A stretch of 64,000 nt of DNA, taken from the NCBI RefSeq assembly GCF_000948985.2, contig NZ_CP059733.1:1364001-1428000 (forward strand), in the 5' to 3' direction. How positions within the stretch are numbered: position 1 is the stretch's first letter; each line of letters opens with the position of its first letter. This DNA is from Thalassomonas viridans (lineage in GTDB: Bacteria > Pseudomonadota > Gammaproteobacteria > Enterobacterales > Alteromonadaceae). Below are positions 28,261 to 44,886 of this stretch, piece after piece. The notes beneath the pieces were generated by a model that saw only the letters and a list, made by a program, of their open reading frames with translations, was not told the origin of the DNA and ran no database searches. The position numbers and the translations under genes are program-made.

Positions 28261-29154
28261 TTAATTCGTGCGTTTTACGATAAAGGTCGCAAATTCGGAT
28301 AAATTCTGCGTATTGTAGGGCAAAGTGGCCAAAGCTTGAAGTGCTTGTTGATATAAGTGGTCAGCTTTTTCCTGCGCACCTTGTAAACCCAGCAGGGCGG
28401 GGTAGGTGCTTTTATTGGCGGCCAGGTCGGATCCCGCCGGTTTGCCCAGTTCTTCTGCCGACGAGGTGATGTCGATAATATCGTCGCGTACCTGGTAGGC
28501 CAGGCCTACGTGTCTGGCGTAATCGGCGAGCGCCTGTTTTTCTTCGGCTGTGGTATTAGGGGCGCAATTGGCGGCCATCAATACCGAAGCTTGTAATAAA
28601 GCGCCGGTTTTCAATTTATGGATTTGTTCCAGGTGCGCCAAGTCGGCGCTTTTGCCTGTGGCTGCCAGATCCAATGCCTGGCCGCCGCACATGCCCTGGT
28701 AGCCACTGGCGTTCACCAGCTGGCGGATCAGGGTCAGGCGCATAGATTCTACCGCCTGTGTGAACTTATGGTTGGCCAGAATATCAAAGGCCAGGGTTTG
28801 CAGGCTGTCGCCGGCCAAAATAGCGGTGGCTTCGTCAAATGCCTTGTGGCAGGTGGGCTGGCCGCGGCGCAGGTCGTCGTCGTCCATGGCCGGCAGATCG
28901 TCGTGCACCAGGGAATAGGCATGAATACATTCTAGCGCGCTGGCGATACCGTCAATATCGTCAAGGTTGGCGCCTAAGGCTTCGCCGGTAATATAGGCCA
29001 GGTAAGGGCGCATGCGTTTGCCGCCCAGCAGCAGGCTATAGCGCATGGCCTCCAGCAATTTTTCATCGTTAACGGGGAGTTGTGCCAGTTTGTCGGATAA
29101 AAAGTTGTTGATGCGGGTTTGGTATTGCTCTAGACGGGCGAGTTTTGTGTTCAC
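28261..29154 (-). CDS. ispA: Farnesyl diphosphate synthase (geranyltranstransferase)
   Basis: Joins isopentenyl diphosphate to C5 and C10 allylic diphosphates to make farnesyl diphosphate for ubiquinone, cell-wall carriers and haem. The 297-residue protein has the first Asp-rich motif [14 protein letters not shown] near residue 86 and the second, YQVRDDIID, near 223. GGKRMRPYL near residue 44 binds isopentenyl diphosphate. The start is GTG 29154, overlapping the xseB stop by 4 bp (GTGA). It sits between xseB and dxs. Confidence 0.97.
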
Positions 29155-38606: not shown

Positions 38607-39491
38607 ATGCAGCAGGCAAGCCTGGATGATTATTTACTATTTGTGACTTTGGTCGAATCCGGTTCTTTTACCAAGGCGGCAGCTGAGCTGGGTATGCCTA
38701 AATCGAAGCTCAGCCGCCATATTGCCGCACTGGAGCAAAAGCTTGGCAGCCAGCTGCTGGTGCGCAGTACCCGCCGTCAGGCGCTGACGGAGGCGGGGCA
38801 GGTGTTATACCGCCTGTGCAAGCCGCACACCGAAGAATTATCTAAGGTGGAAGAAGAGCTGGGAGCCCTGATCAGCCAGCCTAAAGGCAAGCTGAACTTA
38901 TTATTGCCGCTGGAGTTCTTCAACCGGGTAATGAGTTCATTATTGGCGGAGTTCGCCGTGTTATACCCGCAGATCAGTATTTATTGCCACCAGTATTCCG
39001 GGGCTATGCCGCAAACGGAGCTGAAATATGATTTGATCTTTGCCCTGCATGAAGATGAGTTGCCCGCGTCCGACTGGGTTGCCAGAACCCTGTTAAGCTT
39101 TCCCCAGTCCGTTTATGCCGCCAGTGATTATGATGCGGGGCACCTGTCGGCGCCGGAGGATTTGCAGGATGAAATGGCGATTCTGGCAGCGCCCAATCAG
39201 CCCTGGCTGTTTCGGGAAGAGCATACCACTCAGAGTGTGCCGGTACATGGCCGGATAGTGCTGGCAAGCCCTGAAATGCAGTTGGGGGCGGCGATGCGCA
39301 ATCTGGGACTGGCAAAACTGCCGGATTACGTGGTGCAGCTTGCCGGTGAAAAAGAAGGTTTGCAGCGTATTTCCCTTAGTAAGCAGCCCGTGGCCCAGCA
39401 GCTAACCGTGATGTACCAAAGCCGCAGTATACCGGCGAAAACCCGGGCTTTTCTTGACTATTTCCAGAGTAAAATAGGCTGTTTGTCTTAA
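38607..39491 (+). CDS. LysR-type transcriptional regulator
   Basis: A 294-residue regulator. Residues 5-65 are the winged helix-turn-helix (GSFTKAAAELGMPKSKLSRHI), followed by an effector domain. The AAELGMPKSKLSR sequence places it near the CrgA/DsdC-like group that often acts on adjacent divergent genes. The thioredoxin gene, 144 bp away on the other strand, is the obvious target. Effector unknown. RluA-like and NhaC genes converge on its end. Confidence 0.92.
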   Translation: MQQASLDDYLLFVTLVESGSFTKAAAELGMPKSKLSRHIAALEQKLGSQLLVRSTRRQALTEAGQVLYRLCKPHTEELSKVEEELGALISQPKGKLNLLLPLEFFNRVMSSLLAEFAVLYPQISIYCHQYSGAMPQTELKYDLIFALHEDELPASDWVARTLLSFPQSVYAASDYDAGHLSAPEDLQDEMAILAAPNQPWLFREEHTTQSVPVHGRIVLASPEMQLGAAMRNLGLAKLPDYVVQLAGEKEGLQRISLSKQPVAQQLTVMYQSRSIPAKTRAFLDYFQSKIGCLS

Positions 39492-41554: not shown

Positions 41555-41916
41555 TGTTCTTCTTCTTGTTGATTAACCAGCGACCTAAGTATTTTTTACA
41601 CCCGGTGATTTTTGCTGGGTTATTGATTTTGCTGGATATTCTTGTCGGTATCCGGCTTTTATTTGCGTTATTCTCTCATTGAACGCAAGAAATGGCTATC
41701 AAGAATGTTAACAGCGGGTGATAATAGCAGGGCTGTTATTTTATTTACGAAGATATTTGTAATTATTTTGTCGTCTCTACGGTCAGGTACTGCTTAGGAT
41801 AGCAATGTTTTGTTACTTTACTGAGGGTAAATAAATAACGGCTGTCATTGAAAAGCTGAGGTTTATCCCTTAAATAGGGGGTATCTTTTGCAAAACTATT
41901 TGCTCCGGGAGTGATT
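41555..41916. other. Gene-free stretch between nhaC-like gene and gshA
   Basis: Holds the divergent promoters of both genes. Nothing else is recognisable. Confidence 0.4.
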
Positions 41917-43485
41917 TTGTCATCTTTTAACGATTATATTGTGGCCTTTAATCAGGAGGCTTATTTACCGTCTCTGACCGGCATTGGCCGGGGGATTGAG
42001 CGGGAAGCACTGAGGGTGCTGCCTGAAGGTAAATTATCTGATAAACCACATGCTTATGATATCGGCTCGGCATTAACACACCCGAATATCACCACAGATT
42101 ATTCTGAAACCTTGCTGGAGTTTATTACTCCGGTGAGTTTTACCCCGGAAACGGCTATTGCCCAGCTGCAGGATATTCAAAAATTTACCCTTAAGCAGAT
42201 AGACGGTGAGTTATTGTGGCCGTTGAGCATGCCCTGTTTTGTCAATGATGCCGATAAAATCCCCTTGGCGCAATACGGCACCTCCAATATCGGCAGGATG
42301 AAAAACACCTACCGTCAGGGGCTGAAAAACCGTTATGGCAGTATGATGCAGGTGATTGCCGGGATACATTTCAATTTTTCTTTTCCAAAGGACTTTTGGA
42401 AGAACCTGCAGGCATTTGAGCAGAACAGCGATAACCTGGACGAGTTTATTTCCGAGCGCTATTTTGCCCTGATCCGCAACTATAAGCGTTTTTGCTGGCT
42501 GATCCCTTATTTATACGGCAGTTCGCCGGTGATCTGTTCCTCCTTTTTGCAAAATAAACCCCAGCAATTGCCGTTTAAAAGATCCGACAGCGGTTATTTA
42601 TATCTGGAGCATGCCACCTCGTTGCGCATGAGCGACTTAGGTTATACCAACAGTGCCCAATCTGAGCTGCATATTTGCTATAACAGCCTGGACGGTTATG
42701 TTGCCGGCGTACAGGAGGCCATTGGCCTGAGTTCGGATGAGTTTGCCGAGATCGGCGTTAAGGTCAACGGCGAATATCGCCAGCTTAACAGCAATATTCT
42801 GCAAATTGAAAATGAGCTTTATGCGCCTATCCGCCCCAAACGGGTAGCCAAGTCCGGGGAAAAACCGTCTGAAGCCCTTAAGAGCCGTGGTGTGGAATAT
42901 ATAGAAGTACGGGCGCTGGATATCAATCCTTTTGTCGATACCGGCATCAGCCTGGAGCAGGTGTACTTCTTGGATATTTTCCTGACCTATTGCGCCCTCT
43001 TGCCTAGCCCGGAGTTAGATGCCGCGGCGCAAAAGGTTTATGAAGGCAATATGGATGAAGTGGTGGTGCGCGGACGAGATCCTGAGCTGATATTGCATGA
43101 CGGCGGCCGGGAAAAATCTTTGCCTCAGTGGGGCAATGAGATTTTTGAAGGCTTAAGCCAGGTCGCTGCCTTGCTGGATAAAGCCAATAACAGCGACAAG
43201 TACCGGAAATCAGTAACCGATGAGCTGGCCAAAATTAACGACGCCAGTTTGACGCCGTCGGCCCGCCTGGTAGATTTAGTGGTTAACCAGGGGGAGAGCC
43301 TGACGAAGTTTGCCCTGACATCTGCCGGCAACTACCGGAAGTTGCAGCTGGATAACGGTTACCAGTTTTACGATGAAGGCACTTTTGTTGCCAGCGTGGC
43401 GAAATCCCATCAGGAGCAGGCGGAAATCGAAGCCAGCGATGAATTAAGCTATGATGATTTCTTAAAAGAGTACTTTGCCAAATAG
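41917..43485 (+). CDS. gshA: Glutamate-cysteine ligase
   Basis: First step of glutathione synthesis, joining glutamate and cysteine with ATP. The 522-residue protein is of the proteobacterial GshA type, with GRGIEREALRV near residue 24, GSALTHPNITTDYSETLLEFITP (described as the segment near residues 49-71) and IEVRALDINPF near 329. The start is taken as TTG 41917 because CGGGAG lies 5 bases before it; GTG 41911 has no such site. Three small terminator-ending repeats lie beyond its stop on the other strand. Confidence 0.95.
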   Translation: MSSFNDYIVAFNQEAYLPSLTGIGRGIEREALRVLPEGKLSDKPHAYDIGSALTHPNITTDYSETLLEFITPVSFTPETAIAQLQDIQKFTLKQIDGELLWPLSMPCFVNDADKIPLAQYGTSNIGRMKNTYRQGLKNRYGSMMQVIAGIHFNFSFPKDFWKNLQAFEQNSDNLDEFISERYFALIRNYKRFCWLIPYLYGSSPVICSSFLQNKPQQLPFKRSDSGYLYLEHATSLRMSDLGYTNSAQSELHICYNSLDGYVAGVQEAIGLSSDEFAEIGVKVNGEYRQLNSNILQIENELYAPIRPKRVAKSGEKPSEALKSRGVEYIEVRALDINPFVDTGISLEQVYFLDIFLTYCALLPSPELDAAAQKVYEGNMDEVVVRGRDPELILHDGGREKSLPQWGNEIFEGLSQVAALLDKANNSDKYRKSVTDELAKINDASLTPSARLVDLVVNQGESLTKFALTSAGNYRKLQLDNGYQFYDEGTFVASVAKSHQEQAEIEASDELSYDDFLKEYFAK

Positions 43486-43636
43486 CACCATAGGGTTTAC
43501 TGATAACACCTTTTCCCTGCCTGTGACTGAAAGTTAACCGGGCAGGATAAGGGGCAGCATTTCATATGTTTGCCCTTTGATAGCACTTCATATTGGTCTG
43601 GCTACACCTCAGCATTCATTTCTGTTAAAAACAGGC

Positions 43637-43718
43637 AAAAAAAAGCGCGTTGTAAAAACGCGCGTTTGCTTATAAACATAAAAATCACTAAGGGAAATAG
43701 AAGTCTCTCAATCTTCAT
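43637..43718 (-). ncRNA. Tandem small RNA copy A (candidate)
   Basis: On the minus strand, a conserved 43-base block (43684-43726, identical in copy B) runs into a Rho-independent terminator: GCGCGTT and AACGCGC around a 5-base loop (43645-43663), then eight U. A -10-like ATAGATAAC lies at about 43721-43729, giving an RNA of about 80 bases. No conserved peptide frame ends before the terminator. Conservation continues upstream to GTTCATTAAT (43751-43760). Confidence 0.45.
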
Positions 43719-43815
43719 ACCGTTATCTATGAGTCGGTTAACTTGAATAAGTTCATTAATATTTTCTTTTTCTTCAATTTTATTTTTTCTGGCGGTGAAC
43801 GGGAAAATATAGGAC

Positions 43816-43896
43816 AAAAAAAGCGCGTTATAAAAACGCGCATCTTGCTTGTAACACATAAATCACTAAGGGAAATAGAAGTCTCTCAATCTTCAT
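43816..43896 (-). ncRNA. Tandem small RNA copy B (candidate)
   Basis: Same design as copy A, displaced by about 179 bp: conserved block 43862-43904, terminator stem 43823-43841 and seven U (43816-43822). A -10-like TATATAAC lies at about 43899-43906. Upstream GTTCATTAAT (43929-43938) is again conserved. Confidence 0.45.
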
Positions 43897-43985
43897 ACCG
43901 TTATATAGGAGTCGGTTAAAACGGATAAGTTCATTAATGTTCAAATTTTTTTATTTTTCTGTGGTGGGCTGAAAAACAACAGGCG

Positions 43986-44058
43986 AAAAAAAAGCGCGTT
44001 ATAAAAACGCGCATTATATGTAATAAACATAAATCACTAAGGGAAATAAAAGTCTCTC
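43986..44058 (-). ncRNA. Tandem small RNA copy C (candidate, diverged 5' end)
   Basis: Third copy, about 170 bp after copy B. Its 3' half matches (block from 44032, terminator stem 43994-44012, eight U at 43986-43993), but bases beyond 44058 differ, replaced by a CTCT/AGAG hairpin. It has one change in the core (AAATAAAAG for AAATAGAAG). Confidence 0.4.
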
Positions 44059-44265
44059 GTAAGGTAAGAGTGACCTTGCGGGATAAAGTTCATTTTAAAA
44101 TGACAAAAGTTTTTATTCATTGACGATAAAAATATCCCTTGTTGGCTGAAATTTGTGCTTTTATGGCCGTGACGGCGGTTGTTTGTGGAAGTTAATTGAT
44201 TTTCTTCCTGTATTTTTGCGTTTAATCTGGCATCATGCGGGTATAGCAAAAGAGAGTGATTATTT

Positions 44266-44886
44266 ATGGGTGTTTCAAAATCAGCAATACTTGCCGCTAT
44301 TCTGACTGTTGGCCTGGCGGGGTGTGCAACGGCTCCGCCAAAAAATCCTGAAAATCTTTGTGAAATATTCCGGGAGCACAGGGACTGGTATTTTGCCGCC
44401 AAAGAAGTAAGGGAAAGATGGGGGGTGCCGATACATGTGCCTATGAGCATGATGTATCAGGAAAGCTCGTTTAAGGCAGATGCCTTGCCGCCCAGGGACT
44501 ATTTACTCGGCTTTATTCCCTGGGGGCGGGTGAGCAGCGCCTACGGTTATTCACAGGCGAAAACCATGACCTGGGATGACTATGTGCGTGAAACCGACAA
44601 TTCCGGCGCCGACCGGGATGATTTTGACGATGCCATCGACTTTATGGGCTGGTTTATTTTCAAAACCCAAAAGCTCAATAAAGTGTCTAAATGGGATGCC
44701 TACGGCCAGTATTTAAATTATCACGAGGGCTGGGGCGGTTATAAGCGCAAAACCTATAAAAAGAAGGGTTGGCTGGTTAAGGTGGCAAGAAAAGTGGATA
44801 ACCGCGCCAAACGCTACAGCAGCCAGTTAAAAAGCTGTGAGGCCGATTTAAACAAGAGCTGGTTGTGGCGCCTGTTCTTTGGCTGA
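44266..44886 (+). CDS. Lipoprotein with lytic transglycosylase (SLT) domain
   Basis: A 206-residue outer-membrane lipoprotein: a signal with lipobox LAGC (C20), then a lysozyme-like domain. Glu66 in MMYQESSFKADA is the expected catalytic residue of soluble lytic transglycosylases, and YGYSQAKTMTWDDY matches the following part of the fold. It should cleave peptidoglycan between N-acetylmuramate and N-acetylglucosamine. The C-terminal 40 residues are basic. Terminator follows at once. It is the plus-strand neighbour of the RNA array and may share its promoter region. Confidence 0.85.
   Translation: MGVSKSAILAAILTVGLAGCATAPPKNPENLCEIFREHRDWYFAAKEVRERWGVPIHVPMSMMYQESSFKADALPPRDYLLGFIPWGRVSSAYGYSQAKTMTWDDYVRETDNSGADRDDFDDAIDFMGWFIFKTQKLNKVSKWDAYGQYLNYHEGWGGYKRKTYKKKGWLVKVARKVDNRAKRYSSQLKSCEADLNKSWLWRLFFG

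Follow-up and report, generated by a model that had tools for sequence, protein, structure and literature searches.

A tandem array of likely sigmaE-dependent small RNA genes beside gshA in Thalassomonas viridans, probably related to the micA locus

Between gshA and a lytic transglycosylase lipoprotein gene of Thalassomonas viridans, three similar elements, each ending in a terminator, follow one another on the minus strand, raising the question of whether they are separate small RNA (sRNA) genes, pieces of one attenuated mRNA or a dispersed repeat. The original prediction, made from a 64,000-nt stretch of the genome (hereafter, the window; contig NZ_CP059733.1, positions 1,364,001 to 1,428,000), favored a new family of RNAs of about 80 bases. 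Our analysis leads us to regard the elements, with reasonable though not full confidence, as three separately transcribed sigmaE-driven sRNA genes forming a tandemly duplicated, diverged and lineage-specific micA locus, the products of which would repress outer-membrane-protein (omp) mRNAs. Four results reported below go beyond what had been predicted: promoters of the sigmaE type, a position like that of micA, sister RNA types and a candidate target.

Three copies on the 3′ side of gshA

The predicted triplication was confirmed, with start-to-start distances between cores of 178 and 171 bp [Table 1]. Identity to copy B over 72 nt is 85% for copy A and 86% for copy C; between A and B it is 82% over 148 nt. 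The long identical run noted earlier between A and B was also found but measures 45 nt rather than 43, the longest runs being 28 nt for B/C and 18 nt for A/C. As had been proposed, every copy terminates in a perfect 7-bp stem (GCGCGTT-loop-AACGCGC) followed by 7-8 T, and a terminator scan returned six terminator-like sites (three stems, counted once per strand) versus a shuffle mean of 0.6. The gene on the 3′ side, which we take from protein recognition to be gshA (glutamate-cysteine ligase), is convergent with the array; the latter is thus on the opposite strand, as the description "antisense-oriented" implied, but does not overlap gshA. The transglycosylase lipoprotein gene was likewise found where it had been placed. 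A search of the whole window against Rfam at gathering score matched no family, and a search of 15 array loci (E <= 5) yielded no credible match. Since MicA is included in this negative result, the array RNAs are not MicA by sequence.

Table 1. Features of the array and its flanks, in window coordinates.
Feature	Position	Strand	Details
gshA (presumed), convergent neighbor on the 3′ side of the array	41911..43485	+	Neighbor conserved in relatives
sRNA copy A	43637..43721	-	Predicted RNA ~85 nt; core 43637-43709, beginning 43709; terminator 43663-43645
SigmaE-type promoter, copy A	43728..43754	-	GAACTT 43754-43749, N16, TCATA 43732-43728
sRNA copy B	43815..43899	-	Predicted RNA ~85 nt; core 43815-43887, beginning 43887; terminator 43841-43823
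SigmaE-type promoter, copy B	43906..43932	-	GAACTT 43932-43927, N16, TCCTA 43910-43906
sRNA copy C	43986..44058	-	Predicted RNA 73 nt; 5′ end GAGAGAC; core TTTCCCTTAGTG, beginning 44058; terminator 44012-43994 + U tract
SigmaE-type promoter, copy C	44065..44091	-	-35 GAACTT 44091-44086, 16-nt spacer, -10 TCTTA 44069-44065
SLT_4 transglycosylase lipoprotein gene, divergent neighbor upstream of the array	44266..44886	+	PF19489, 268 bits; conserved neighbor

A pattern search revealed three further copies at 4515-4518 kb of contig G000:C1, for a total of six in 7.9 Mb, divided between two loci, which argues against a widely dispersed repeat. The second locus (G000:C1:4511000-4523000) adjoins genes for a DUF1722/2-thiouracil desulfurase and for a phage tail sheath; its copies are spaced by 361 and ~2200 bp, with genes occupying the larger gap. 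Three sister species carry three, three and two copies at gshA and more copies at another locus. Between species, C-type copies (including the orthologs of copy C in all three) are 85-90% identical and A/B-type copies 74-94%, while C-type and A/B-type copies share 58-65% identity; the duplication is therefore older than the genus. Conservation within the genus peaks, by eye, in the promoter, the RNA and the terminator, and compensatory change was seen in 0 of 11 consensus pairs among 14 genus-level RNAs. With six copies by sequence in one genome, and arrays in relatives, the RNAs are multicopy siblings in the sense of two or more highly similar sRNA genes per genome. On the 1.22-Mb second contig (G000:C2), two stretches near either end (at 28493 and 1194609) are identical over 3324 bp, which may reflect the overlapping ends of a circular replicon of ~1.17 Mb.

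Promoters and conservation of the unit

The element GAACTW-N16-TCNTA precedes five of the six copies of the genome, copy E differing by one change (GAATTA). Its -10 lies 6 nt from the GAGAGAC 5′ end in copies C-F and 18 nt from the core in A and B, whence the predicted lengths of ~85, 85 and 73 nt for A, B and C. The rpoE gene of the same genome is preceded by GAACTT-N16-TCCTA, and E. coli micA by GAACTC-N16-TCTGA followed, 6 nt further, by GAAAGAC. On the strength of this match in form to the promoters of rpoE and micA, the copy promoters were classed by sequence as sigmaE promoters, and the array RNAs are likely to be sigmaE sRNAs. The RpoE protein of T. viridans scores above the NCBIfam RpoE cut-off, and an hfq gene is also present. 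Published sigmaE motifs, as given in the available part of the source, are GGAACTTTT and GTCAAA, from which Salmonella micA deviates at one and two positions (PMC1804206). A sigma70 promoter scan found 2 matches versus 2.7 expected.

Among copies of the collected loci that have a perfect terminator stem, the motif was found at most 110 nt upstream in 146 of 156. Shuffled sequences had it in 22 of 7800 cases, and random positions within these loci, some of them on real copies, in 366 of 8000. With identical copies removed and the -10 widened, the promoter was present in 127 of 130 such copies. A scan of named genomes for the exact core returned 95 stretches, of which the 80 listed (L046-L125, partly overlapping with L020-L045) were all analyzed. 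Core conservation is by construction in this set, the promoter, terminator and context being free. Without the terminator condition imposed in the counts above, and skipping seven truncated sites, the promoter accompanied 98 of 101 exact-core sites, and 74 of the sites ended in a perfect-stem terminator, 40 different stems being represented; out of 4500 random places, including places on real copies, 62 had a promoter, 94 a terminator and 28 both. That the stems vary in sequence yet stay complementary is as expected from selection on the terminator. Sites devoid of a perfect stem mostly showed, by eye, G-U pairs or single defects, and one locus (L111) has a -10 changed by one base. In a 1.6-Mb sample of genome G127 (45% of that genome), 117 promoter matches were counted on both strands, two of which have an intrinsic terminator within 150 nt: these are the type 1 and type 2 sRNAs beside gshA (L032; types defined below). 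The number of such pairs was 3 with a laxer terminator rule and 34 when a looser promoter rule was added.

The genera met in the exact-core scan were, among the matches listed, Colwellia, Thalassotalea, Thalassomonas, Litorilituus, Pseudocolwellia and Cognaticolwellia, together with MAGs labeled Colwelliaceae, Alteromonadaceae and Gammaproteobacteria. Thalassomonas and Cognaticolwellia belong to the family Colwelliaceae in NCBI, to which we presume the remaining named array-bearing genera to belong as well. One site each in Providencia and Nitrincola was set aside as a chance match, having neither promoter nor terminator and no match to the covariance model. At E <= 0.1 this model, built from 14 copies, matched 170 of the 295 GTDB-family genomes, a set whose weak members are not evidence; 48 of the 170 had a best E < 1e-5, often with multiple neighboring copies. 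The homologous arrays that such a search was expected to reveal in relatives do exist, for instance in Colwellia, Thalassotalea and Litorilituus. Across 247 genomes of the order, eight outside the family gave weak matches (E 2.9e-4 to 9.9e-4); they were not retained as homologues, the seven inspected being all devoid of the promoter and resembling ordinary terminators.

Two sister types, type 2 (GAGAGCAAAACCTCCCTGGACTGCTTTC) and type 3 (GAGAGACTTTTGTTATATTTTCCC), occur within the same arrays as the type 1 RNAs described so far, and arrays reach five type 1 copies plus one type 2 (L025). The promoter is identical in form in 17 of 17 type 2 and 5 of 5 type 3 copies (13 and 3 after removal of identical copies). 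Type 2 cores were present in 8 of 59 relatives (copies include L022 1166, L029 1184, L032 1338 and L041 1219) and absent from all four Thalassomonas genomes. Type 2 RNAs have CCUCCC in a 5′ hairpin; that of L032 folds with a 5′ hairpin containing CCUCCCUGG, and the type 1 RNA of L036 with a 5′ hairpin whose loop is UACUCCCUU. The hairpin stem is absent, by eye, from the window copies and from many Colwellia copies, and the 5′ hairpin was therefore not relied upon; consensus folding of 30 diverse copies returned no fold, the terminators being misaligned. That the promoter-RNA-terminator unit constitutes a conserved family is very secure.

Other explanations of the units were weighed against regulatory RNAs, with probabilities that overlap and do not have to add up to one. 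An 85-aa minus-strand open reading frame spanning copies A and B (43602-43859) and the CATG in which the core ends would suit pieces of short leaders or attenuators, or small-protein genes; this explanation is very improbable, given that the minus strand downstream is the antisense of gshA, that almost all copies have a terminator of their own at the end and that the differences in RNA length are not multiples of three, so that no frame is kept. The earlier preference for small RNAs over peptides is supported and, as a promoter-like element and a terminator belong to each copy, the copies do not resemble pieces of a single attenuated mRNA, an alternative named at the outset. A mobile or dispersed repeat carrying promoter and terminator by chance, also named then, would be in keeping with the second locus in T. 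viridans and the loci away from gshA in relatives, yet scarcely fits with so few copies, with a duplication predating the genus or with conservation that is strongest, by eye, precisely in promoter, RNA and terminator; we give it hardly any credence. Finally, the sRNAs might be transcribed but serve as a sponge for a protein rather than as partners of mRNAs. An identical core repeated in many copies suits titration, and the target statistics presented below are weak. GGA, the CsrA-binding motif, is however missing from the conserved core, which is instead CU-rich and complementary to ribosome-binding sites, as suits mRNA pairing, and we consider a sponge improbable.

Relationship to MicA and other sRNAs

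In E. coli K-12, micA (2814802-2814874, plus strand) is convergent with gshA and has luxS on its other side. The array similarly occupies the strand opposite gshA, on the 3′ side of that gene, and copy C shares with micA the 16-nt promoter spacer, the 6 nt to a GA(A/G)AGAC 5′ end, the length of 73 nt and the intrinsic terminator (PMC1804206, PMC4618604 for MicA). Type 3 RNAs have TTTGTTAT in common, by eye, with MicA, an Hfq-dependent sRNA whose 5′ seed pairs with ompA. The two differ in that micA is a single copy in E. coli whereas the array is made of tandem copies, in their cores, and in the SLT_4 gene (PF19489) that takes the place of luxS. The covariance model of MicA (RF00078; threshold, 41 bits) matched nothing in the window at gathering score, nothing in 15 array loci (E <= 5) and nothing in L322 and L323 (E <= 1), while recovering the positive controls E. 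coli (83.9 bits) and the gshA flank L340 (79.8 bits). The case for homology to MicA is thus one of position, promoter and a short element common to both, on which basis a relationship of the array RNAs to micA is probable.

The position was followed through other genomes. In the 80 listed named loci, gshA and slt were both within 2 kb of the core site in 26, slt only in 11 and gshA only in 3; the other 40 consist of 2 chance matches, several loci cut short and copies elsewhere. The sites in these loci that have a gshA 3′ end no more than 2 kb away number 48, and every one is on the strand opposite that gene. When 20 gshA flanks from different genera and families of the order were scanned, a promoter-terminator unit facing gshA was found in 7 under a stricter rule and in 10 under a looser one, same-strand units numbering 0 of 20 under both; the remainder of the flanks held 1 (stricter) and 4 (looser) units per 58,080 strand-bases. 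In 8 of the 10 unit-bearing flanks the -10 has TCCCT downstream of it, and likewise in MicA. L340 is MicA by Rfam, and L338 and L325 are MicA-like by eye. Taken together, the flanking units and the TCCCT found in 8 of 10 were read as a shared ancestral locus. The 10 flanks in which the looser rule found no unit facing gshA (L327, L328, L329, L331, L332, L334, L335, L336, L339 and L341) may have lost or moved the locus, may have been missed by the rule or may never have had it. L337 (G035:C1:579170-581290), from another family, presents a different short RNA, GCAAGAGTTGTTTTTTCATT, in two tandem copies that have GAACCA-N16-TCWGA elements and face gshA, and L330, from a further family of the order, a single unit similar to this pair.

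Alternatively, the array may have arisen independently of any micA ancestor, the 3′ side of gshA being merely a convenient convergent intergenic site for sigmaE sRNAs. The lack of a match to the Rfam MicA model, a core unlike the MicA seed, a neighbor other than luxS, the unrelated-looking units of some families (L337, L330) and the 10 of 20 flanks with none all speak for independent origin. Against it are the position, orientation, promoter geometry and 5′ GA(A/G)AGAC, which are those of E. coli micA, units that are intermediate by eye (L325, L338) and the TCCCT common to most unit-bearing flanks, so that we judge independent origin unlikely, though far from negligible.

Descent from a micA ancestor, which we prefer, would fit a broader picture in which several families have a nursery of envelope-stress sRNAs 3′ of gshA, an ancestral sigmaE RNA having given rise to MicA in enterobacteria and, in Colwelliaceae, to arrays with at least three seed types that seeded copies elsewhere; we regard the chances of this picture as evenly balanced. 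If it is true, the birth and re-targeting of sRNAs would be traceable at one place, with a record of sRNA duplication, seed change and target gain in marine Colwelliaceae, and the envelope-stress sRNA branch would extend to a group with no characterized example among the papers listed in our literature searches. MicA, a well-studied regulator, is described, in the available text, as essentially enterobacterial, conserved among Enterobacteriaceae with one additional partial BLAST match in Lactobacillus (PMC4618604), a view that sigmaE sRNAs at this locus in several families would widen. In Bordetella, according to the available text, the level of a proposed MicA homologue was unchanged in an rseA mutant (PMC12235514).

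The array was also compared with other known sRNAs. MicV is, like RybB and VrrA, a sigmaE-dependent repressor of omp mRNAs; all three are single-copy and lie at a different locus. Type 2 RNAs contain ACTGCTTTC, which in our assessment resembles the RybB seed. The seeds of these three sRNAs are unlike array type 1, for which Rfam returned no match. LhrC of Listeria has a CU-rich pairing stretch, and OmrA/OmrB, PrrF1/2, AbcR1/2 and Qrr belong to other regulators and loci. The accessible portions of the corresponding papers describe RybB (PMC1804206) and VrrA (PMC2628432) as sigmaE-dependent repressors of omp mRNAs, and OmrA/OmrB, PrrF1/2, AbcR1/2 and Qrr as sibling sRNAs, some of them tandem (PMC4211561). 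LhrC1-5, likened here by description rather than sequence, consist of several highly similar copies linked to cell-envelope stress, but are under the control of the LisRK two-component system rather than sigmaE and belong to a Gram-positive bacterium (PMC4132741, available portion). By term search, the available text of the sibling-sRNA review mentions neither MicA nor LhrC (PMC4211561), and the gshA-side locus is not mentioned, under the terms used, in those of a Shewanella sRNA paper (PMC5471319) and a Pseudoalteromonas Csr paper (PMC11882849). Searches of the openly licensed PMC literature on Colwellia and Thalassomonas sRNAs returned nothing on the array, and neither did those on Alteromonas sRNAs and tandem sigmaE sRNAs among the matches listed (for one search, the best 10 of 170).

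Proposed mode of action and candidate targets

We propose that, when misfolded outer-membrane proteins activate sigmaE (RpoE), several copies would fire together, yielding a large dose of 73-85-nt RNAs whose U-rich linker and U tail would fit Hfq binding. Aided by the 5′ GAGAGAC, the core UUUCCCUUAGUG would then pair with the ribosome-binding region of omp mRNAs and stop their translation. Judging from sequence, repression of outer-membrane receptors by the array RNAs is plausible. The copies themselves, their promoter elements and terminators, their conservation and the synteny are visible in the sequence; control by sigmaE, a role of Hfq, repression of targets and an origin in a micA ancestor are inferred from it.

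Global target searches, for which gene starts were taken from a crude ORF and start-codon rule (as in the two-part test below), gave weak signals. In a duplex-energy ranking of 1350 gene starts of G127, the best energies were not better than those of shuffled sRNAs. The leaders of 30 TonB receptors of T. viridans (of 59 plug matches) had a mean of 8.39, versus a shuffle 95th percentile of 8.47. Among presumed exported genes, 6-mers of the type 1 core reached an odds ratio of 2.44 versus a shuffle 95% limit of 2.09, a result confounded by ATGAAA; enrichment of 7- and 8-mers was not beyond that of shuffles, and type 2 was not enriched. In G127, the contiguous match that ranked first (22 bp, 6 of them G-U, located upstream of a Pfam-less protein gene beside mdh) was dropped; of 59 relatives, 1 has a homologue of that gene, and the pairing is interrupted there. 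A possible type 2 site in the leader of a dsbA-like gene of G127 (AAGGAAAGCAGT) scored no better than shuffled-sRNA maxima. Within the window, a near-complement of the core (TACTAAGGGAAATA, one change) lies on the minus strand at 39368-39381, 4 kb from the array; located on the antisense strand inside a LysR-type gene, it is probably due to chance and was discarded as a partner.

The pattern AACACTAAGG-N2-12-ATG, which resembles a Shine-Dalgarno sequence, was found at 173 sites in 98 genomes, versus 64 for the backward control. Thirty loci with the pattern were returned, eight of which have an open frame of at least 130 aa at the ATG, four of the eight being exported-looking by eye. Two sites recur between species of the genus, both heading outer-membrane receptor genes. 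The first (L375/L376), the site string of which is also present in a third species, gives good pairing to the G001 copies, equaled by 0 of 200 shuffles. Pairing of the second (L377/L378) is poor, with 23-94 of 200 shuffles doing just as well, and the ortholog of this second receptor in T. viridans, L241, is devoid of the core site.

In T. viridans, the L375/L376 receptor has an ortholog, L391 (91% over 361 aa), with a paralogue close by, L390 (44%); the two have CarboxypepD_reg and OMP_b-brl_4 domains and are located at G000:C1 3.866-3.872 Mb. These two OMP_b-brl_4 TonB-dependent receptors are the best target candidates, as a lead rather than proof. In each leader, pairing is predicted at two separate places, the Shine-Dalgarno for the core and codons 5-7 for the 5′ GAGAGAC; the match at the codons may stem partly from protein conservation. 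A motif-based search of the G127 sample for related receptors found none, and pairing at a third relative of these receptors, L389, was not better than chance. For L391, the predicted energies with copies A, C and D were -24.1, -22.2 and -25.0 kcal/mol, with 0, 1 and 0 of 300 mononucleotide shuffles as good; for L390, they were -21.5, -19.9 and -21.1 kcal/mol, with 4, 4 and 1 of 300 shuffles as good. Under a strict two-part rule, L391 failed with the A-type core because of one extra A in the core site and passed with the D-type core, while L390 passed with both; of the 1350 G127 starts, 0 passed, and shuffled segments gave 0-6.
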